A DNA stretch of 23,441 bases from an uncultured Clostridia bacterium (GTDB lineage Bacteria > Bacillota > Clostridia > Peptostreptococcales > Anaerovoracaceae). The stretch's first letter is position 1; each line of letters begins with the position of its first letter. The stretch covers positions 1-23,441 of the forward strand of contig CAKQUI010000022.1 of assembly GCA_934277495.1 (NCBI GenBank). The letters are read 5' to 3'. A model generated the notes under the pieces. It saw nothing but the letters and a program-made list of their open reading frames with translations, had not been told where the DNA came from and did no database searches. Below, piece by piece: positions 9,386-23,441 of this stretch. Position numbers and translations under genes: made by a program.

Positions 9386-10507
9386 TTATTTTTCATCTTC
9401 TCCTGCGCTGTGCTTTTCCCCGTACCACAGCTCCAGCAGATAAAGAATCATATTATCGTGGGTGACTCTCAGATCAAGCCCGGTCAGTGTGTGCAGCTTG
9501 TTTATCTTGTACTGCACCGTGTTCTTGTGTATGAACATCTCCGAGGCTATGCCGTTGATGGAGCCGTTGTTCTGGTTGTATACCTTGATGAAAGACATGA
9601 TATCCGGTATGTCGTCCTTACGGCATCTGCTGAATATCTTCGAAAAAAGCTGATCTTTGTATGTCTTAGGTATCTCTGACAGGATTATCTCAAGGATCGT
9701 ATCGTTGTAAAGATATATGCCTGGACTTGTTTCCCGTTTCACCTGCAGGACTTTCATCGCCTGATGGTATGAATTGACGGCATCATCGCAGCCGTGGCTT
9801 ATATCGCCGATACCGCAAATGTAATTTTCCGCAGGGTACTGCTCGCTGAAGAAAGTCATGATGCACTCACGGCATTTTTCAGCTGATGTGAAATTCCCCA
9901 CCATTATGCCGGAATCTTCTCTGTTGCAGATGATCGTACCTGCCGGAGATATGCGATTTTCGAACAGCGACCGGCCCTTTTTCACGGAGCCGTCGTCACC
10001 GAAAAACTCCATAGATGCAAACACCATAGGTTTCTGAGGATCCACGCCGTTCTTTTCAAGGAAATCCTCGATCTCGTATCTTGACTCGATCTCACCGCTG
10101 ATCCAGCCGTTTATGAAAAGCATCTTTTCCTGGTCTTTCCGGCCTTCTTTTCTGATCCTTGCCAGATCACGCATCAGCAGTTCGGTCATCTTCTGTATCA
10201 GACGTGCATAGTGCACTATATCGTCCACATCTCCCGTCAGTCCTATAACACCGATTATATGCTCCTTGTATATCAGCGGCAGGTTTATGCCCTTCCTGCA
10301 TCCTCTGTACTCGTTATCGTAACGAACCATCAGCTCGCTGCGCCGGTCCCTTATCACGATCTGCGCCCCTTCATGGAACTGACCGATACGTTCCTCGTCG
10401 GTGCTTGCCACTATCGTCCCTGTGTCATCCATGATGTTTATACCGAAATCCACGACCGTGCTTATCTCTGCTATAAGATCACGGGCCAGTTTCCTGCTTA
10501 CTTTCAT
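9386..10507 (-). CDS. cdaR: CdaR family regulator (sugar diacid recognition domain + PucR-type HTH)
   Basis: A 373-residue activator. The N-terminal sugar-diacid-recognition domain (about residues 1-135) shows 'VVDFGINIMDDTGTIVAS', 'RIGQFHEGA' and 'GCRKGINLPLIYKEHIIGVI', typical of CdaR. A central GGDEF-like degenerate region follows, and the C-terminal PucR-type helix-turn-helix reads 'MFIHKNTVQYKINKL...TGLDLR'. In E. coli CdaR activates glucarate, galactarate and glycerate use. Here it diverges from a glycerate kinase gene, so control of glycerate metabolism is likely. The ATG at 10507 has a GGAGGG site. A promoter on this side is not clear (a TTGAAA lies near 10615). Confidence 0.9.
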   Translation of the reverse strand: MKVSRKLARDLIAEISTVVDFGINIMDDTGTIVASTDEERIGQFHEGAQIVIRDRRSELMVRYDNEYRGCRKGINLPLIYKEHIIGVIGLTGDVDDIVHYARLIQKMTELLMRDLARIRKEGRKDQEKMLFINGWISGEIESRYEIEDFLEKNGVDPQKPMVFASMEFFGDDGSVKKGRSLFENRISPAGTIICNREDSGIMVGNFTSAEKCRECIMTFFSEQYPAENYICGIGDISHGCDDAVNSYHQAMKVLQVKRETSPGIYLYNDTILEIILSEIPKTYKDQLFSKIFSRCRKDDIPDIMSFIKVYNQNNGSINGIASEMFIHKNTVQYKINKLHTLTGLDLRVTHDNMILYLLELWYGEKHSAGEDEK

Positions 10508-10690
10508 ATCACACCCTCCACTGCGGATATGTTACCGGAAATAATATATTCATGCCGGTTTTCCTGCTTCATACTATCGAATATCTTTACTTTATCAGAA
10601 CCTGTATATATTTTCAATATCTGTGTCATAACTGCCGGTCCAGGTTCCTTTTGTTACAAATAACTAATTATAATTTCGAAAAATTATGCC

Positions 10691-10719
10691 TTGACCCATT
10701 TAATTATACATTGTATACT
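10691..10719 (+). promoter_or_regulatory. Promoter of glycerate kinase
   Basis: TTGACC (10691-10696) and TATACT (10714-10719) with a 17-base spacer, about 40 bases upstream of the glycerate kinase start. It lies in the 252-base divergent region shared with the CdaR-type regulator, where the regulator would bind. Confidence 0.7.
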
Positions 10720-10759
10720 GTTAGAATAAAAGAAAAAAAGGTATGCAAGGTGGAATAAA

Positions 10760-11887
10760 ATGAGAAAATTCCTCGTTATGCCTGATTCTTTCAAAGGCAC
10801 TATGGATGCTGCCGAGGTCTGTGATATCATGGAGCAAGGAATCAGAAACAGATATCCCGACGCTGTGATCACAAGCGTTCCTCTGGCAGACGGCGGTGAA
10901 GGCACTGTCGACAGCTACCTTCATGTTTTTCCCGGTGAGAAGATATACATGGATGTGACCGGACCTTTCGGAGAGAAAGTTGCCGGATACTACGGGAAAT
11001 ACGATGATACAGCTGTCATAGAGATGGCTGCAGCCGCAGGCTATGTCCTGGCAGGAGACAGACGAGATCCTGCTGCAGCGACTACATATGGTGTCGGTGA
11101 ACTTATAAAGGCTGCTGTCGATGCAGGCTGCAGGAAGATAATCCTGGGTCTTGGCGGAAGCTGCACCAACGATGGCGGAGCCGGTATGGCTGCTGCCCTC
11201 GGTACAAAATTTTACAACGAAAACAACGAGCTGTTTGTCCCCACAGGGAACACACTGTGCAGGATAAACAGGATAGATAAATCAGAAACGGACAGGCTGC
11301 TCCGTGATACAGAGGTAACTGCCATGTGCGATGTCAGGAACATGCTTTACGGCAGAAACGGTGCAGCATATGTATTCGCACCTCAGAAAGGTGCCGGTCC
11401 CGAAATGGTAAAGGAACTGGATCACAACCTGAGATGCTATGCAGAAGTGATAAAAACATCTTTGAACATAGATATAAGCAGAGTCCAGTGCGGCGGAGCT
11501 GCAGGCGGCATGGGAGCCGGAGCGGTAGTCTTCCTGAATGCTTCACTGAAGTCCGGGATCGATGTGATCCTCGACGTCCTGAAGTTCGAAGATATACTTC
11601 CCGGGTACGATGCCGTTTTCACAGGCGAAGGACAGTTCGACCGTCAGAGCCTCAACGGCAAAGTCGTCATAGGCATTGCCAGGCGGGCAGGCAGTTCCAG
11701 TGTACCGGTCATAATCATCGCCGGTATGGTCAGGGAGATTTCCCTGGATATCGCTCAGCTGGGCATATCTGCCGTATATCAGGCTGCAACTCATGAATAC
11801 AGCAGTGATGAAGAACTGCAGGCAAACTGCCGTAAGGATCTTTTTAAAGCGGCTTCAATAGCTGCAGGCGATCCTCATATATCATAA
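10760..11887 (+). CDS. glxK: Glycerate kinase (GlxK/GarK type, glycerate 2-kinase)
   Basis: A 375-residue cytoplasmic enzyme of the GlxK/GarK family, which phosphorylates D-glycerate with ATP to 2-phosphoglycerate for glycolysis. Family motifs in order: 'VMPDSFKGTMDA' at the N-terminus, 'SVPLADGGEGTVDS', 'AAATTYGVGELI', 'LGLGGSCTNDGGAGMAAALG', and 'VFTGEGQFDRQSLNGKVV' near residue 290. Length is normal for the family. The ATG at 10760 has GGTGG five bases or so upstream. It diverges from a CdaR-family regulator, the same pairing as in enteric diacid/glycerate pathways, and ends in its own terminator. Confidence 0.95.
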   Translation: MRKFLVMPDSFKGTMDAAEVCDIMEQGIRNRYPDAVITSVPLADGGEGTVDSYLHVFPGEKIYMDVTGPFGEKVAGYYGKYDDTAVIEMAAAAGYVLAGDRRDPAAATTYGVGELIKAAVDAGCRKIILGLGGSCTNDGGAGMAAALGTKFYNENNELFVPTGNTLCRINRIDKSETDRLLRDTEVTAMCDVRNMLYGRNGAAYVFAPQKGAGPEMVKELDHNLRCYAEVIKTSLNIDISRVQCGGAAGGMGAGAVVFLNASLKSGIDVILDVLKFEDILPGYDAVFTGEGQFDRQSLNGKVVIGIARRAGSSSVPVIIIAGMVREISLDIAQLGISAVYQAATHEYSSDEELQANCRKDLFKAASIAAGDPHIS

Positions 11888-19300: not shown

Positions 19301-20423
19301 CGATATCTGTGAATATGTTGTTCAGATCTGAAGCGTTGGTTGCCGCCTTGTAGTACTGTGTATCGTCGTCATTGCCGTCCTTGGCACGGGTGCCCAGGTT
19401 ATTGTAAGCTGTGGCGTCAGGGTAGTTGCTGGACAAACCATGCATATAAGCGTTGAACTTTTCTTTGTCAGTCCAGTCCCAACCCCAGCCTGTATGCCCT
19501 GTGACACTGGCATCTGCATCATCGAATACACCTATTGTGTAGATATATGCATCTGATTTGATGGTCTTGGCAGATGCTATCGCTTTGTTTGCAACACCAT
19601 CCACGAATCCACTGGAATGGTTTGGTTCACCGTCTGTGAAGAATATGACTACTCTCTGAACATTCTTACGGTCGCTGCTGCTGGATTCATCAGACTTGCT
19701 TCTGTCCACCAGCGTCTTCGCAAGCTCCATACCATTGTCAGCGGCAGTAGCACCTGCAGGATTAAGAGCATCGACCCTGTCTTTCAGCTGCGACCGGTTG
19801 CTGCTGGTGTACGCTCCGTAATTGCTTACGATCTGAGTATAGTTGTAAGTGTAACCTCTGTCACGATAAGTATCGTTACCGACCTTGTCGGTTTTGCTGC
19901 CGGCAAACTTCACCAGAGAGATACGGCTCTGCAGATCAGCCGGCCGCTTGTCGTTCTCCTCTGCCGATCTGTCGATGAAGCTGTTCACCGCATTTTTCAG
20001 CTTGTCGATTTTCTTATCATCATTCCTATCCCGGTCATCCATACTGCCGGACACGTCCAGTACCAGTACTATATCAAGCGGTACTGTCGACTGCCCGATT
20101 ATCTTTGCAGTAGATGACAATGCTGACAGACTCACAAGAAAATCAGAAGTATTGTTCTTCCTGATCGTCTTGGTGTCCTGTTTCGGATTTGTGAGTGTGA
20201 TGTCTCCTGTAGATACGGACTTGTCCGTCCATATCCTGCCGATGTTCTTCGTGCTGTCATCCAGCGCATTCGCATCATGCCACTTGTTTACAGTAATGTC
20301 ATCTGCAACGGTGTTCTCAGCGGCTCCTGCCGACTGAGGCCATAATCCGAATACCATAACAGCGACGACCAGAAACGCCAGCACTGAAGCAATCTTTTTC
20401 CCCCGTTTGCTTCCTGCTTTCAT
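13389..20423 (-). CDS. Giant cell-surface protein: VWA domain, 1 CnaB-like and 10 Spy0128/FctA-type isopeptide domains
   Basis: A 2344-residue adhesin or pilus-tip-like protein. A long signal peptide ends near A35 ('GLWPQSAGAAENT'). The VWA domain (about 115-375) has a MIDAS: D123-V-S-G-S127 in 'VLDVSGSMDD', then 'GATAADNG', then 'FFTDGEPN'. A less-defined region (about 380-715) follows. Residues about 719-860 form a CnaB-like domain ('DISKTVK', 'YTVTETT', 'FTNTY'). Ten pilin isopeptide-linkage domains of 105-160 residues then begin near 863, 1021, 1176, 1323, 1476, 1604, 1763, 1920, 2057 and 2184. Each keeps the isopeptide triad: Lys in 'K.L.GR'-like, Glu in 'Y.v.E', Asn in 'F.N.Y'. The C-terminus has a linker, 'GASTGDD', a membrane helix and 'RRKINQ', an anchor without a canonical LPXTG. 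The ATG at 20423 has an AGGAGGAG site. No sortase gene is in view. Confidence 0.93.
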   Translation of the reverse strand: MKAGSKRGKKIASVLAFLVVAVMVFGLWPQSAGAAENTVADDITVNKWHDANALDDSTKNIGRIWTDKSVSTGDITLTNPKQDTKTIRKNNTSDFLVSLSALSSTAKIIGQSTVPLDIVLVLDVSGSMDDRDRNDDKKIDKLKNAVNSFIDRSAEENDKRPADLQSRISLVKFAGSKTDKVGNDTYRDRGYTYNYTQIVSNYGAYTSSNRSQLKDRVDALNPAGATAADNGMELAKTLVDRSKSDESSSSDRKNVQRVVIFFTDGEPNHSSGFVDGVANKAIASAKTIKSDAYIYTIGVFDDADASVTGHTGWGWDWTDKEKFNAYMHGLSSNYPDATAYNNLGTRAKDGNDDDTQYYKAATNASDLNNIFTDIGDEIVALAQSPTEIEQGKDPNRTGYITLTDQLGDYMQVDDLNTLTYADQPFKYTSKEETTAGNKKTVKYIFSEDIPDTNHVYPEGNLKDIEITVEKATGDDQLQTGDLVTVKIPANLIPLRYYEIDKDGNMTIDETYPMRLFYDVSLKDGVAESIENPDALLQAYINANKDDEGQVHFYTNKYDKDSKDEYSDGVGAYAQFVPAASNDFYYFQNDEVLYLDEECKKPATSAIDVSGKTIYYYQRDYYEQGDDGKAVSKINTVKIPGNSNLLLDGYAVKDDKTGEYYIPAGTPRTTSLTYFTEDKDEGANKTSTAKTSLKPVWENDFRGKDVYTYLGNNGRMTFDLPGQLDISKTVKTEEGHAVPESLKDKEFEYKLELTAKEGSELKDEYTAQKYTGAKADGDSFKIKPGDTFTLKDGQTLKIYGLAPGTDYTVTETTADHFTGTVAQDNAGDKAATGKADNGNIFAKGTVPGNDVASAAFTNTYKADPAKLDGSTNLKLRKDFVTASGKSAWDMDYLKDAEFTFYLSADGSDVPMPEGTVENAGVRNSIKRVKSADEINQVFGDIKYTKPGTYSYRITEKDPEADRKLGVSYSYASYTVTVTVTDEGGTLKAEAVMNKVRDDNGTELENAVEVKDNTAVFRNVYDTDSERVDVTASKIFTDYTGSRQLKDGEYTFRITPKTAGAPLPDGAKDYIETTNTGIGVKFDSLPFTAEDAKGATKESPMSYEYTLEEVLPAGATAENNYTVNGVKYDPTKYTIVLKVYIDTVDGKDTLILDRTYLDADGKALTTSVPTFHNSYRADSVTLTGNTALRGDKTLTGRDIKDGEKFDFTLTAGDDSTAKAVSDKVITIASGGDEASVKGAVAEGKAEGFKFGDVTFTKEGTYTFDIKETVPDPKAGGMTYDRHTAKVTVVVTDDGNGKLKAAVSYDNGTVSDAADRAVFKNKYEASHAYSTSGGLQVEKVMNGRVMKAGEFAFTITPSEGAPAISDSDKSFTNPQQRGSGEADVIKKLQGLVFTEADAGKTYTYTVKETTGSLSGVTYDKTVYEVAIKVVDNGDGTMHTVTTITLKDTDGSDKSAVYDSSKADAGVPSVRFTNSYKAADADPVDITDGFSKVLTGREWKDSDSFTFTLKALTDGAPMPDKTEITVKKADVADGKAPISFGKITFAKAGVYKYEVKEKVPDDKAAGMVYDDAARVITVTVTDDGNGKLAAAVTAVEGSRTFTNKYETEDLPLDEVCGVTVTKVLYGHDMAKDQFEFSIKAADKASADKLKISAEDGATFGSLAADDSVVTTLLSSLQMTMTQEDIGKTYTYTFAETKDSDKGYVYDENKYKLEITTIDGEDGTLKAKVVLTNITKNEKLFDKTLSRDDTALGEKGVVIPFVNRYDGSTDVDGGTKADVKADKTLTGRSLKADEFTFKLATKPADGSEGKVLQIVKNDGSGNIAFKSLSYRTSDKAAGEDAVILSDAVKEGYAVKSVDDKGRTVYTLSYRVYEDRSALPGGVSLVTGSFDFTVTVTDNGDGTLTAVTNYPEGKDKFGFVNRYAADDVDVDITGSKTLDHADGLSPADITGKFTFTLESLTDGAPMPDKTTAKNDAAGNVAFGKVGYTLDLLEDVTPAADGSRTRVFEYKVTETGSASGVTNDKDSSRTFKVTLKDDGSGHLTVTVDPAAGPAFSFTNTYDVDEQPSSITDQIKITKELAGRDMKAGEFSFELLEGGKVVAKGTNDAKGNVVFDKIKYTKPGNHTYTVREVKGTAGGVTYDENVFTVYTEVTDQGNGKLKAEHHVILSAGDGEFAPSDDNKITFSNSYKADPATVTVGALKKLIGRDLKDGEFTFLLKDADGKTVAKAKNDESGEVTFKELVFDKAGEYGYTVSEVNDGQKNMTYDKTVCKLTVKVTDDGEGVLKAELKGDKTVFTNTYKSDKPHKTTDGDKPGKGASTGDDSDMTLALALMMMAATVGCIVIVRRKINQ

Positions 20424-20695
20424 TTAAGTCTCCTCCTGTTAATGTATACTGTGCTGCAATATCCAGGTAACTGCTACCGTGGTCCCCTGCTGATAAAACC
20501 CTTGTCAGACACATTGCAGCTATTTCTGTGCCTGATCCTGCCTGATTCTCATTTTTCCCTTATAAACATGGATCCTGTAAACTTGCTGTTACTGGTATAG
20601 ATTTTGTTCCGACCCATTGACTGACCTGATATCCAAAATGAAGGACGATCCTGCTGTGAAAGATATTACTTTTTCAGTTTCAGATATACAACAAA

Positions 20696-20713
20696 GCATG
20701 GCTTCACGCCATG
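20696..20713. repeat. Hairpin in the leader of the giant gene
   Basis: GCATGGC-N4/5-GCCATGT: perfect CATGGC/GCCATG arms around TTCAC. It lies in the 5' leader, about 280 bases before the start codon. The remaining leader (20424-20690) holds only short arms such as GGTA/TACC near 20467-20477, and no gene. Confidence 0.4.
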
Positions 20714-20752
20714 TCATGTTTTTAACTATTCAGCCATAATTCCCCATAATAT

Positions 20753-20776
20753 ATATAGATGTAGTAACATCTATAT
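20753..20776. promoter_or_regulatory. Operator candidate: perfect 10-bp dyad just after the poly-G promoter
   Basis: ATATAGATGT (20753-20762) and ACATCTATAT (20767-20776) around AGTA. On the minus strand it falls at about +7 to +30 relative to the expected transcription start, a classic repressor position; it would also form a 5' hairpin in the mRNA. The binding protein is not in the window as far as can be seen. Confidence 0.55.
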
Positions 20777-20789
20777 TTTATGTATGCTA

Positions 20790-20819
20790 ATAATACTACC
20801 CCCCCCCCTGAAAAGTCAA
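20790..20819 (-). promoter_or_regulatory. Promoter of the giant gene with a G10 tract in its spacer
   Basis: Minus-strand TTGACT (20814-20819) and TATTAT (20790-20795), separated by 18 bases: TTTCA, ten G (complement of C at 20799-20808), TAG. Loss of one G would give the optimal 17-base spacing. A-tracts lie upstream of the -35 box (20849-20880), as UP elements do. The start codon is about 365 bases downstream, and no other convincing promoter was seen in the leader. Confidence 0.65.
20799..20808. repeat. Homopolymer run of ten C (G on the coding strand)
   Basis: The only long mononucleotide G/C tract noticed in the window; it lies in the promoter spacer of the giant surface-protein gene. 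Such runs change length by slipped-strand mispairing. Confidence 0.95.
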
Positions 20820-21167: not shown

Positions 21168-21209
21168 ACATCTCTTATTCATTTATGACTTTTCACAAAA
21201 TCAGTTTAT

Positions 21210-21412: not shown

Positions 21413-21706
21413 TTATGAAAGCTGCTCCATGTCTTCGCTCTGTCCTGAGCTTACGGAGTGTTTCACTCTGTCGCGTTCTTCGGCTTTCTTGGCGTCGTTC
21501 CAGTGATCCATCGTACCTACGAGGTATCCTGTGATCCTTCTTATCCTCTCGAAAGGTACATGCGAGAATGTATAATCCAGGTCTGCATAATCACCGTCGA
21601 TGTTGATGTCCAGCGTTTCCAGCTTCCTGTTGTACTTTTCCTGCAGATAGTCTACATAAGCCTGAGCTTCCCTCGGATCTGCGTTTCCTGTGATGGTAAC
21701 TGACAT
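21413..21706 (-). CDS. Stand-alone NrdD C-terminal-domain-like protein
   Basis: About 97 residues. The start at 21706 (MSVTITGNADPREAQAY) has an AGGGAGGG site; the frame is open 26 codons further but that part has no good signal. The second half, 'VPFERIRRITGYLVGTMDHW' followed by 'NDAKKAEERDRVKH', closely resembles the C-terminal end of class III anaerobic ribonucleotide reductase (NrdD), where a similar 'RI.GYL....fN.aK..E...RvkH' runs near the glycyl-radical site. The zinc-ribbon cysteines and the glycyl-radical context are absent. Small proteins of this kind are annotated as anaerobic ribonucleoside-triphosphate reductase in Clostridia; their role is not established. It is monocistronic. 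Confidence 0.75.
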   Translation of the reverse strand: MSVTITGNADPREAQAYVDYLQEKYNRKLETLDINIDGDYADLDYTFSHVPFERIRRITGYLVGTMDHWNDAKKAEERDRVKHSVSSGQSEDMEQLS

Positions 21707-21872
21707 ATATATCCCTCCCTGTGATTTTCGTATATCGGTCGCCGGCATAACCGGCAGCCTGATGATGCAGCTATGATTTTTCACATCATCTTGATATGAT
21801 TATACACCTGCACACTATATTCTGTATATAGATGCCTGCCAAAAATACATCAAAAAAACATAGTGGACTATT

Positions 21873-22189: not shown

Positions 22190-22385
22190 ATAAATGAAGA
22201 GGCTTTCATGTGTCTGCGGCAGACTCTTTACAAAGTCATGCCTCAGTTGAAAAGGGAAACCGGTGGAAATCCGGTGCGGTACCGCCACTGTAAGCAGCGA
22301 GCAGCTTTTCGATGATGTCACTGGATAGAAACTTCCGGGAAGGCAGATATGCTGCAGCGACCTGCAAGCCAGGAGACCTGCATGG
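22190..22385 (+). ncRNA. Cobalamin (vitamin B12) riboswitch
   Basis: The conserved core is clear: GAGGC (22199-22203) pairs with GCCTC, then GAAAAGGGAAACCGGTG, AAATCCGGTGCGG, GCCACTGTAAGC, GATGATGTCACTGG, GGGAAGGC, and the B12 box AGCCAGGAGACCTGC at 22367-22381. All appear in the family order and spacing. Adenosylcobalamin-class riboswitches usually turn off B12 synthesis or uptake genes when the ligand is plentiful. Here the next gene on the same strand is a surface protein. Confidence 0.95.
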
Positions 22386-22528
22386 ATGCTGCGCAGAGCA
22401 GCCGACGGATATTTCGGCACGACTGCGATACCGGAGCCTTCAGACGGTATGATATCAGGTCAAAGCTATTCTCTTTACAGGATGATTTCAACGATATCCT
22501 GATATGGCTGAAAAGATTTTACTTATGA
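22382..22528 (+). CDS. Possible 48-residue upstream ORF starting at the B12 box
   Basis: The ATG at 22382 directly follows the B12 box, and the AGGAG inside the box (22371-22375) lies six bases upstream, an ideal ribosome-binding spacing. The ORF 'MDAAQSSRRIFRHDCDTGAF...' ends at 22528, before the leader terminator. It may be chance, because AGGAG is part of the conserved box. If real, ligand binding would hide its start signal. Confidence 0.25.
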   Translation: MDAAQSSRRIFRHDCDTGAFRRYDIRSKLFSLQDDFNDILIWLKRFYL

Positions 22529-22775: not shown

Positions 22776-23441
22776 ATGAAGGAAAATCACAGAAAACGCA
22801 TTGCGGTCAGCTGGCTGCTTGCCATCATGATGCTCATCACCTGCATCCCGGCAACAGCGTTTGCTGACAGCACTTCCGGATGGAATGGCGAACCGGCGGC
22901 AGAGGCACCTGCCGTAAGTGAATCCGGCGGGATCTCATGGTATCAGATAGAAGATGCCGCAGACCTGGCATGGTTTGCCAAAGAAATCAATGACGGCACA
23001 GAGGGCGCTGCCGGAAGCGACGCCAACGCCGTACTCACATCCGATATCGACCTTAATGGTCAGAACTGGACAGCCATAGGCACGACAGATAATCCGTTCA
23101 AGGGCAAATTCGACGGCAAAGGCCACAGCATCAGCAATCTCAGCATCGATGCATCATCCGGATACCAGGGTCTCTTCGGCGACTCATACGGCACCGTCAG
23201 CAATGTCGATATCAAGTCAGGCAAGGTGACCAGCACTACCAGCAACACAGGATCGCTGATGGGTATGAACAATGCCGGCGGCATCGTGGAAAACTGCAGC
23301 AGCACCGCTGTTGTTACTGACAATTCAACTTCCAGATCATCGTACTTCGGCGGTCTTGTCGGCAACAATTCCGGAACTATCACAAAGTCATCCTTCACAG
23401 GTACAGTACAGACAGGCAACGAAACCATCAAACAGAAGAAT
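22776..23441 (+). CDS. GLUG-motif surface protein, N-terminal part, under riboswitch control
   Basis: The first 222 codons; the gene continues past the window. The ATG at 22776 has a consensus AGGAGG site. A signal peptide (about residues 1-30, 'LITCIPATAFADS') is followed by an Ala/Glu-rich spacer. Then comes a beta-rich domain typical of GLUG proteins: 'YQIEDAADLAWFAKEIND', 'LTSDIDLNGQNWTAIGT', 'FKGKFDGKGHSISNLSI'. GLUG-like repeats follow: 'GLFGDSYGTVSNVDIKSG', 'GSLMGMNNAGGIVENC' and 'GGLVGNNSGTITKSSF'. Such proteins are large, extracellular and repeat-built, often with further C-terminal domains. The cobalamin riboswitch and terminator upstream suggest it is made when B12 is scarce, so a cobalamin-binding part (for example a transcobalamin-like DUF4430 domain) may follow beyond the edge. 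That last point is inference. Confidence 0.88.
   Translation, partial: MKENHRKRIAVSWLLAIMMLITCIPATAFADSTSGWNGEPAAEAPAVSESGGISWYQIEDAADLAWFAKEINDGTEGAAGSDANAVLTSDIDLNGQNWTAIGTTDNPFKGKFDGKGHSISNLSIDASSGYQGLFGDSYGTVSNVDIKSGKVTSTTSNTGSLMGMNNAGGIVENCSSTAVVTDNSTSRSSYFGGLVGNNSGTITKSSFTGTVQTGNETIKQKN

Follow-up and report, generated by a model that had tools for sequence, protein, structure and literature searches.

We propose that a run of ten guanines between the -35 and -10 hexamers upstream of a giant adhesin gene is the variable element of a porA-type, phase-variable sigma-70-type promoter, a reading to which we assign a probability of roughly 0.75. The promoter lies on the minus strand of the window, by which we mean the whole stretch of 23,441 nucleotides analysed here, and consists of a -35 hexamer TTGACT (20819-20814; five of six positions matching the consensus), an 18-nt spacer TTTCAGGGGGGGGGGTAG (20813-20796) and a -10 hexamer TATTAT (20795-20790; likewise five of six), with the proposed slippage element, the G10 tract, occupying positions 20808-20799 of the spacer. 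According to this model, slipped-strand mispairing during replication would add or remove G residues in the tract and thereby shift the distance between the two hexamers through its optimum, from the present 18 nt to 17 nt with one G fewer or 19 nt with one G more, and the altered spacing would switch or grade transcription of the adhesin between cells. The promoter should work at 18 nt, at least as well at 17 nt and more weakly at 19-20 nt. We infer all three of slippage at this tract, use of the G10 promoter and the resulting change in expression. A preceding sequence-only reading had described TTGACT and TATTAT around an 18-base spacer containing ten G, and a spacing that passes through the optimal 17 bases, and both descriptions were confirmed at 20819-20790. 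Its central suggestion, a candidate phase-variable promoter, is supported by relatives: there such tracts lie in promoter spacers, the genes behind them mostly encode secreted or surface proteins, the controls gave 0 or 1, and near-identical promoters differ in tract length.

Between an upstream tRNA-Arg gene and the ATG of the adhesin, the G10 promoter is the sole minus-strand site that matches at least 9 of 12 hexamer positions at a spacing of 16-18 nt. Extending the spacing to 15-19 nt adds only TTGACT-15-TAGTAT, which shares the -35 hexamer and has an alternative -10 TAGTAT (20798-20793, minus strand) overlapping TATTAT at a spacer of 15 nt, and a poor TTTACA-19-AAAAAT (20581-20551); as the sequence-only reading had claimed, another clear promoter is absent, no better site being present in this interval. 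The window contains four overlapping G7 matches, all from the G10 run, and at least four were obtained in 2 of 100 dinucleotide shuffles. Shuffling the 40 nt on either side of an unchanged tract produced a promoter of at least 10/12 around it in 2.9% of 5000 trials. Taken alone, the G10 site is hence mildly non-random, which is suggestive rather than decisive, and it is because the layout recurs in relatives that we regard the promoter as more than a chance arrangement. The alternative that the adhesin transcript starts elsewhere, for example within the leader at a promoter that is weak or uses an alternative sigma factor, and that the G10 promoter is a chance resemblance, draws on the flank shuffles that equalled the score, on the length of the leader compared with most of the pooled sites described below and on the weak TTTACA-19-AAAAAT closer to the gene, but we consider it quite unlikely given a gap without any other good site and a layout that stands far above controls in relatives.

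The tRNA-Arg gene (anticodon CCT; 21167-21093, minus strand) lies upstream on the same strand as the adhesin. Since it has its own promoter-like site (21238-21210) and is followed by a hairpin and then T6 (about 21081-21048), the adhesin probably needs a promoter of its own, and the tRNA-Arg is an unlikely source of its transcription. The predicted leader of 366 nt (20424-20789, minus strand), whose final bases ahead of the ATG at 20423 read AGGAGGAGACTTAA, matched no Rfam family up to an E-value of 1, folded no better than shuffled sequences (z -0.73) and, when aligned with the leaders of two adhesin relatives (L001 and L002), revealed no conserved promoter. An inverted repeat near the predicted 5' end (20753-20776, minus strand; 10-nt arms at 20767-20776 and 20753-20762 with a 4-nt loop) would form a hairpin that starts a few bases past the predicted transcription start, and may stabilise the message as a 5' hairpin or bind a regulator as an operator. 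The adhesin gene itself (20423-13389, minus strand) encodes a protein of 2344 residues with a signal-peptide-like start, a VWA domain, DUF7601, ten FctA isopeptide stretches and a C-terminal hydrophobic stretch with a basic tail; the earlier claim of a surface product agrees with the predicted location, for which the signal-peptide-like start and the VWA and FctA stretches argue.

Two other modes of switching were considered and rejected. A frameshift switch through a coding tract, of the type found in Bifidobacterium pili, does not apply, as the G10 tract sits at least 376 nt upstream of the ATG and outside the adhesin reading frame. Switching by inversion, with the G tract incidental, would resemble the invertible promoters of other Clostridia such as Clostridioides difficile, which share with our proposal the phase variation of a Clostridia gene at its promoter but which, in the accessible part of the source, use site-specific inversion between flanking inverted repeats (PMC11868660); the window shows no good sign of these. 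Its flanks hold no substantial inverted repeats, only a distant 10-nt inverted pair of chance length (20809-20818 and 21186-21195), one arm of which overlaps the -35 hexamer. By our own estimate chance alone would give about as many 10-nt pairs in 1 kb, the segment between the two arms includes the tRNA but lacks the -10 hexamer, and the other inverted pair is the hairpin with the 4-nt loop, all of which leaves inversion with a negligible probability.

The strongest support for slippage at a promoter spacer comes from the recurrence of this layout in other Clostridia. The search pattern TTGACN{2,9}G8N{0,9}TANNAT, which allows spacers of 9-25 nt and was controlled by the same pattern reversed, was present in 21 of 349 Anaerovoracaceae genomes (27 rows representing 24 distinct sites) and in 9 of 341 sampled Clostridia genomes (19 sites), with 0 matches of the reversed control in either set; the class sample repeats a few family genomes, none of which is among its nine positives. 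Although 9-25 nt were permitted, 22 of the 24 family sites fall in the 16-20 nt register. Some genomes of the class sample carry several sites, with seven in G867 and four in G974. When the tract was instead placed just after the -10 hexamer (spacers of 12-18), none of the 30 positive genomes matched, and a TTGAA variant of the pattern gave 4 sites in 3 of these 30 genomes but also 1 control match. The scarcity of matching genomes within the family counts against our reading. A search through the genus around G867 yielded nothing beyond short and weak matches outside G867 itself, and a similar search around G516 found the promoter in G516 and G444 only, of 4 genomes.

A census that does not depend on the pattern points in the same direction. 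It covered 36 listed G9+ tracts not selected by the pattern, from six genomes (G466, G654, G557, G516, G661 and G523) that had been pre-chosen because each has one pattern site or more; the share of tracts in spacers may be lower in G476 and in genomes further down the list, such as G493 (180 matches) and G415 (302). Thirteen of the 36 tracts are located inside the spacer of a promoter of at least 10/12, compared with 0/36 for the mirrored sequence and 0/36 for the C strand at the same threshold, and with equal placements a promoter lay wholly upstream of the tract in 0/36 and wholly downstream in 0/36. These 13 tracts reduce to about eight independent promoter families, since G557 contributes four copies and G466 and G523 two each, and the remaining 23 of the 36 tracts lie within reading frames or elsewhere and are not in promoters, which counts against our reading. 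In G523, apparently Anaerovorax odorimutans as judged from one identical glycerate kinase, three loci on three contigs (L160, L165 and L169) carry poly-G tracts of another class (G10-G12), flanked by similar sequence on both sides. By eye, these tracts seem to belong to a coding module that is repeated in tail-fibre-like or other modular genes, where coding phase variation is possible.

The products encoded behind tract promoters are predominantly surface proteins. Pooling all tract promoters of at least 10/12 with spacers of 14-22 nt yielded 52 sites. A reading frame follows 48 of them, and 30 of the 48 frames have a signal-peptide-like start by a simple and crude hydrophobicity rule. If only frames that lie within 300 nt and reach 100 aa or more are counted, 28/39 behind tract promoters were signal-peptide-like versus 3/40 behind non-G promoters in the fetched loci, a test that overstates independence because each paralogue enters on its own and one gene enters two times; of frames with a ribosome-binding site and a length of 150 aa or more, 26 of 199 were signal-peptide-like. 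Pfam families found in 20 chosen products of the 48 include Cna_B, Big_2, fn3, Big_4, List_Bact_rpt, BspA-type LRR and CWB2, the 20 also contain three Na+/H+ antiporters, one MFS transporter and one sigma-54 activator, and 8 of the 20 have no Pfam family. Surface proteins dominate, but the set extends beyond them. In G557, four tandem signal-peptide genes (L149-L152) each stand behind the same TTGACA-G9-TATACT promoter, and the one tested carries a CWB2 cell-wall domain; a combinatorial surface cassette is possible.

Differences in tract length between closely related promoters bear directly on whether such tracts vary. A paralogous promoter pair in G867 has G11 and G12 within flanks that are 96% (25 nt on the left) and 94% (35 nt on the right) identical, and in G466 two paralogues that lie side by side carry G10 and G9, their right flanks (35 nt) being identical and their left flanks 72% identical. 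In an orthologous region of two species, G444 and G516, 517 of 546 alignment columns are identical and the single gap, of 2 nt, falls inside the spacer (16 versus 18 nt), which speaks for our reading; that the change involves a GT unit adjoining the tract rather than G itself counts against it. Also counting against it, the four paralogous promoters of G557 all have G9 and the two of G523 both have G10. Equal tracts of this kind speak for a promoter that is real but static, its G tract serving as a binding site or being tolerated as a spacer of fixed length and varying too little to matter, yet near-identical promoters in relatives do differ in tract length, and the pooled tracts of 8 to 15 G in spacers of 14 to 22 nt would be unexpected of a fixed element, so that we regard a static promoter as unlikely, if the most serious of the competing explanations.

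An assembly or sequencing error in the tract or its length is a further explanation to be weighed, as G tracts are described as hard to count in the accessible text of a study on Bifidobacterium (PMC9187656), and contigs end 16 nt (G444) and 3 nt (G867) after such promoters. However, a miscount would turn ten G into nine or eleven and leave the layout unchanged, and the layout is common to many genomes, which makes this explanation very improbable. Contig edges at such promoters were seen in G444 (L116/L194/L195) and G867 (L180, L183), the contigs either ending at the distances given or starting 8 nt before the promoter, and short-read assemblies may break at the tracts through heterogeneity or sequencing dropout.

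The tract does not follow the adhesin gene. When relatives of its first 720 residues were sought, those with a name included Mogibacterium kristiansenii and also a Lachnospiraceae MAG (61-62% identity in the best segment), and the protein itself is listed on 3 contigs. Adhesin relatives occur in 25 of 397 genomes of the family of L001 and in 16 of 296 of that of L002. Because 59 adhesin-relative loci, some of them short of upstream DNA or holding an incomplete gene, are without a usable tract, showing no upstream G or C run of at least 8 except a C12 near a contig end (L029), the G10 tract is not conserved with the adhesin, which counts against our reading. Viral contigs contained neither a match to the promoter pattern nor an adhesin relative, and in plasmid and phage collections the tRNA stretch was the sole match to the window.

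Several neighbouring features of the window were also noted. At 9386-11887 a glycerate kinase lies divergent from a sugar-diacid-type regulator (Diacid_rec, HTH_30). The kinase has matches in 106 of 349 Mogibacterium-family genomes at a best identity of 58-59%, and Anaerovorax odorimutans, an Anaerovoracaceae bacterium and Lentihominibacter are among its few named relatives; the species of the window is thus probably a member of Anaerovoracaceae, or close to that family, that these genomes do not include. A cobalamin riboswitch (22191-22399, plus strand; Rfam RF00174, 109.9 bits) precedes a frame at 22776 that carries a GLUG motif and runs off the window. A short frame at 21413-21784 (minus strand) matches only the last ~30 positions of NRDD, the anaerobic ribonucleotide reductase, and may be read as an NRDD fragment or a small relic. 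At the window start, a PD-(D/E)XK nuclease family transposase (PDDEXK_2) lies at 485-1303 on the minus strand.

The opc promoter of Neisseria is of the same kind as porA. The closest parallel to the arrangement described here is porA of Neisseria meningitidis, where, in the available portion of the report, about 9-11 G lie in the spacer of a surface-protein promoter and tract length changes the spacing, surface expression being 2-fold lower with 10G and 13-fold lower with 9G when compared with 11G (PMC3639595); in contrast to porA, the proposed promoter of the window belongs to an unrelated Gram-positive lineage and gene. The sortase-pilus G-tracts of Bifidobacterium breve, a Gram-positive gut commensal, likewise link a G-tract to an adhesive surface structure, but unlike that of the window they are coding and shift the frame, and the discussion of that paper, as far as its text was accessible, mentions spacer tracts in passing, in a mention that carries no data (PMC9187656).

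While the porA-type promoter is already known, the newer claim put forward here is the wider set in Clostridia. A literature search, with subscription papers mostly outside its reach, recognised no report of poly-G spacer promoters in Clostridia. Promoter phase variation in Clostridia is known mainly through DNA inversion. With somewhat less assurance than for the window promoter, we lean towards the view that poly-G spacer promoters serve Clostridia, in particular the Anaerovoracaceae, as a phase-variation device that is widespread though scattered, with several copies in some species, acting mostly on secreted, lipoprotein and cell-wall genes, and also on Na+/H+ antiporters and a regulator. 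Tandem paralogues that each have their own tract, such as the four CWB2-type genes of G557 and the G10/G9 pair of G466, would then build a combinatorial coat that requires no recombinase, and the window adhesin would be one member of this set. If this is true, many commensal Clostridia would vary their coats by a recombinase-free device acting on surface proteins, and such variation would be missed by surveys of inversions and would tend to be hidden by short-read assemblies.
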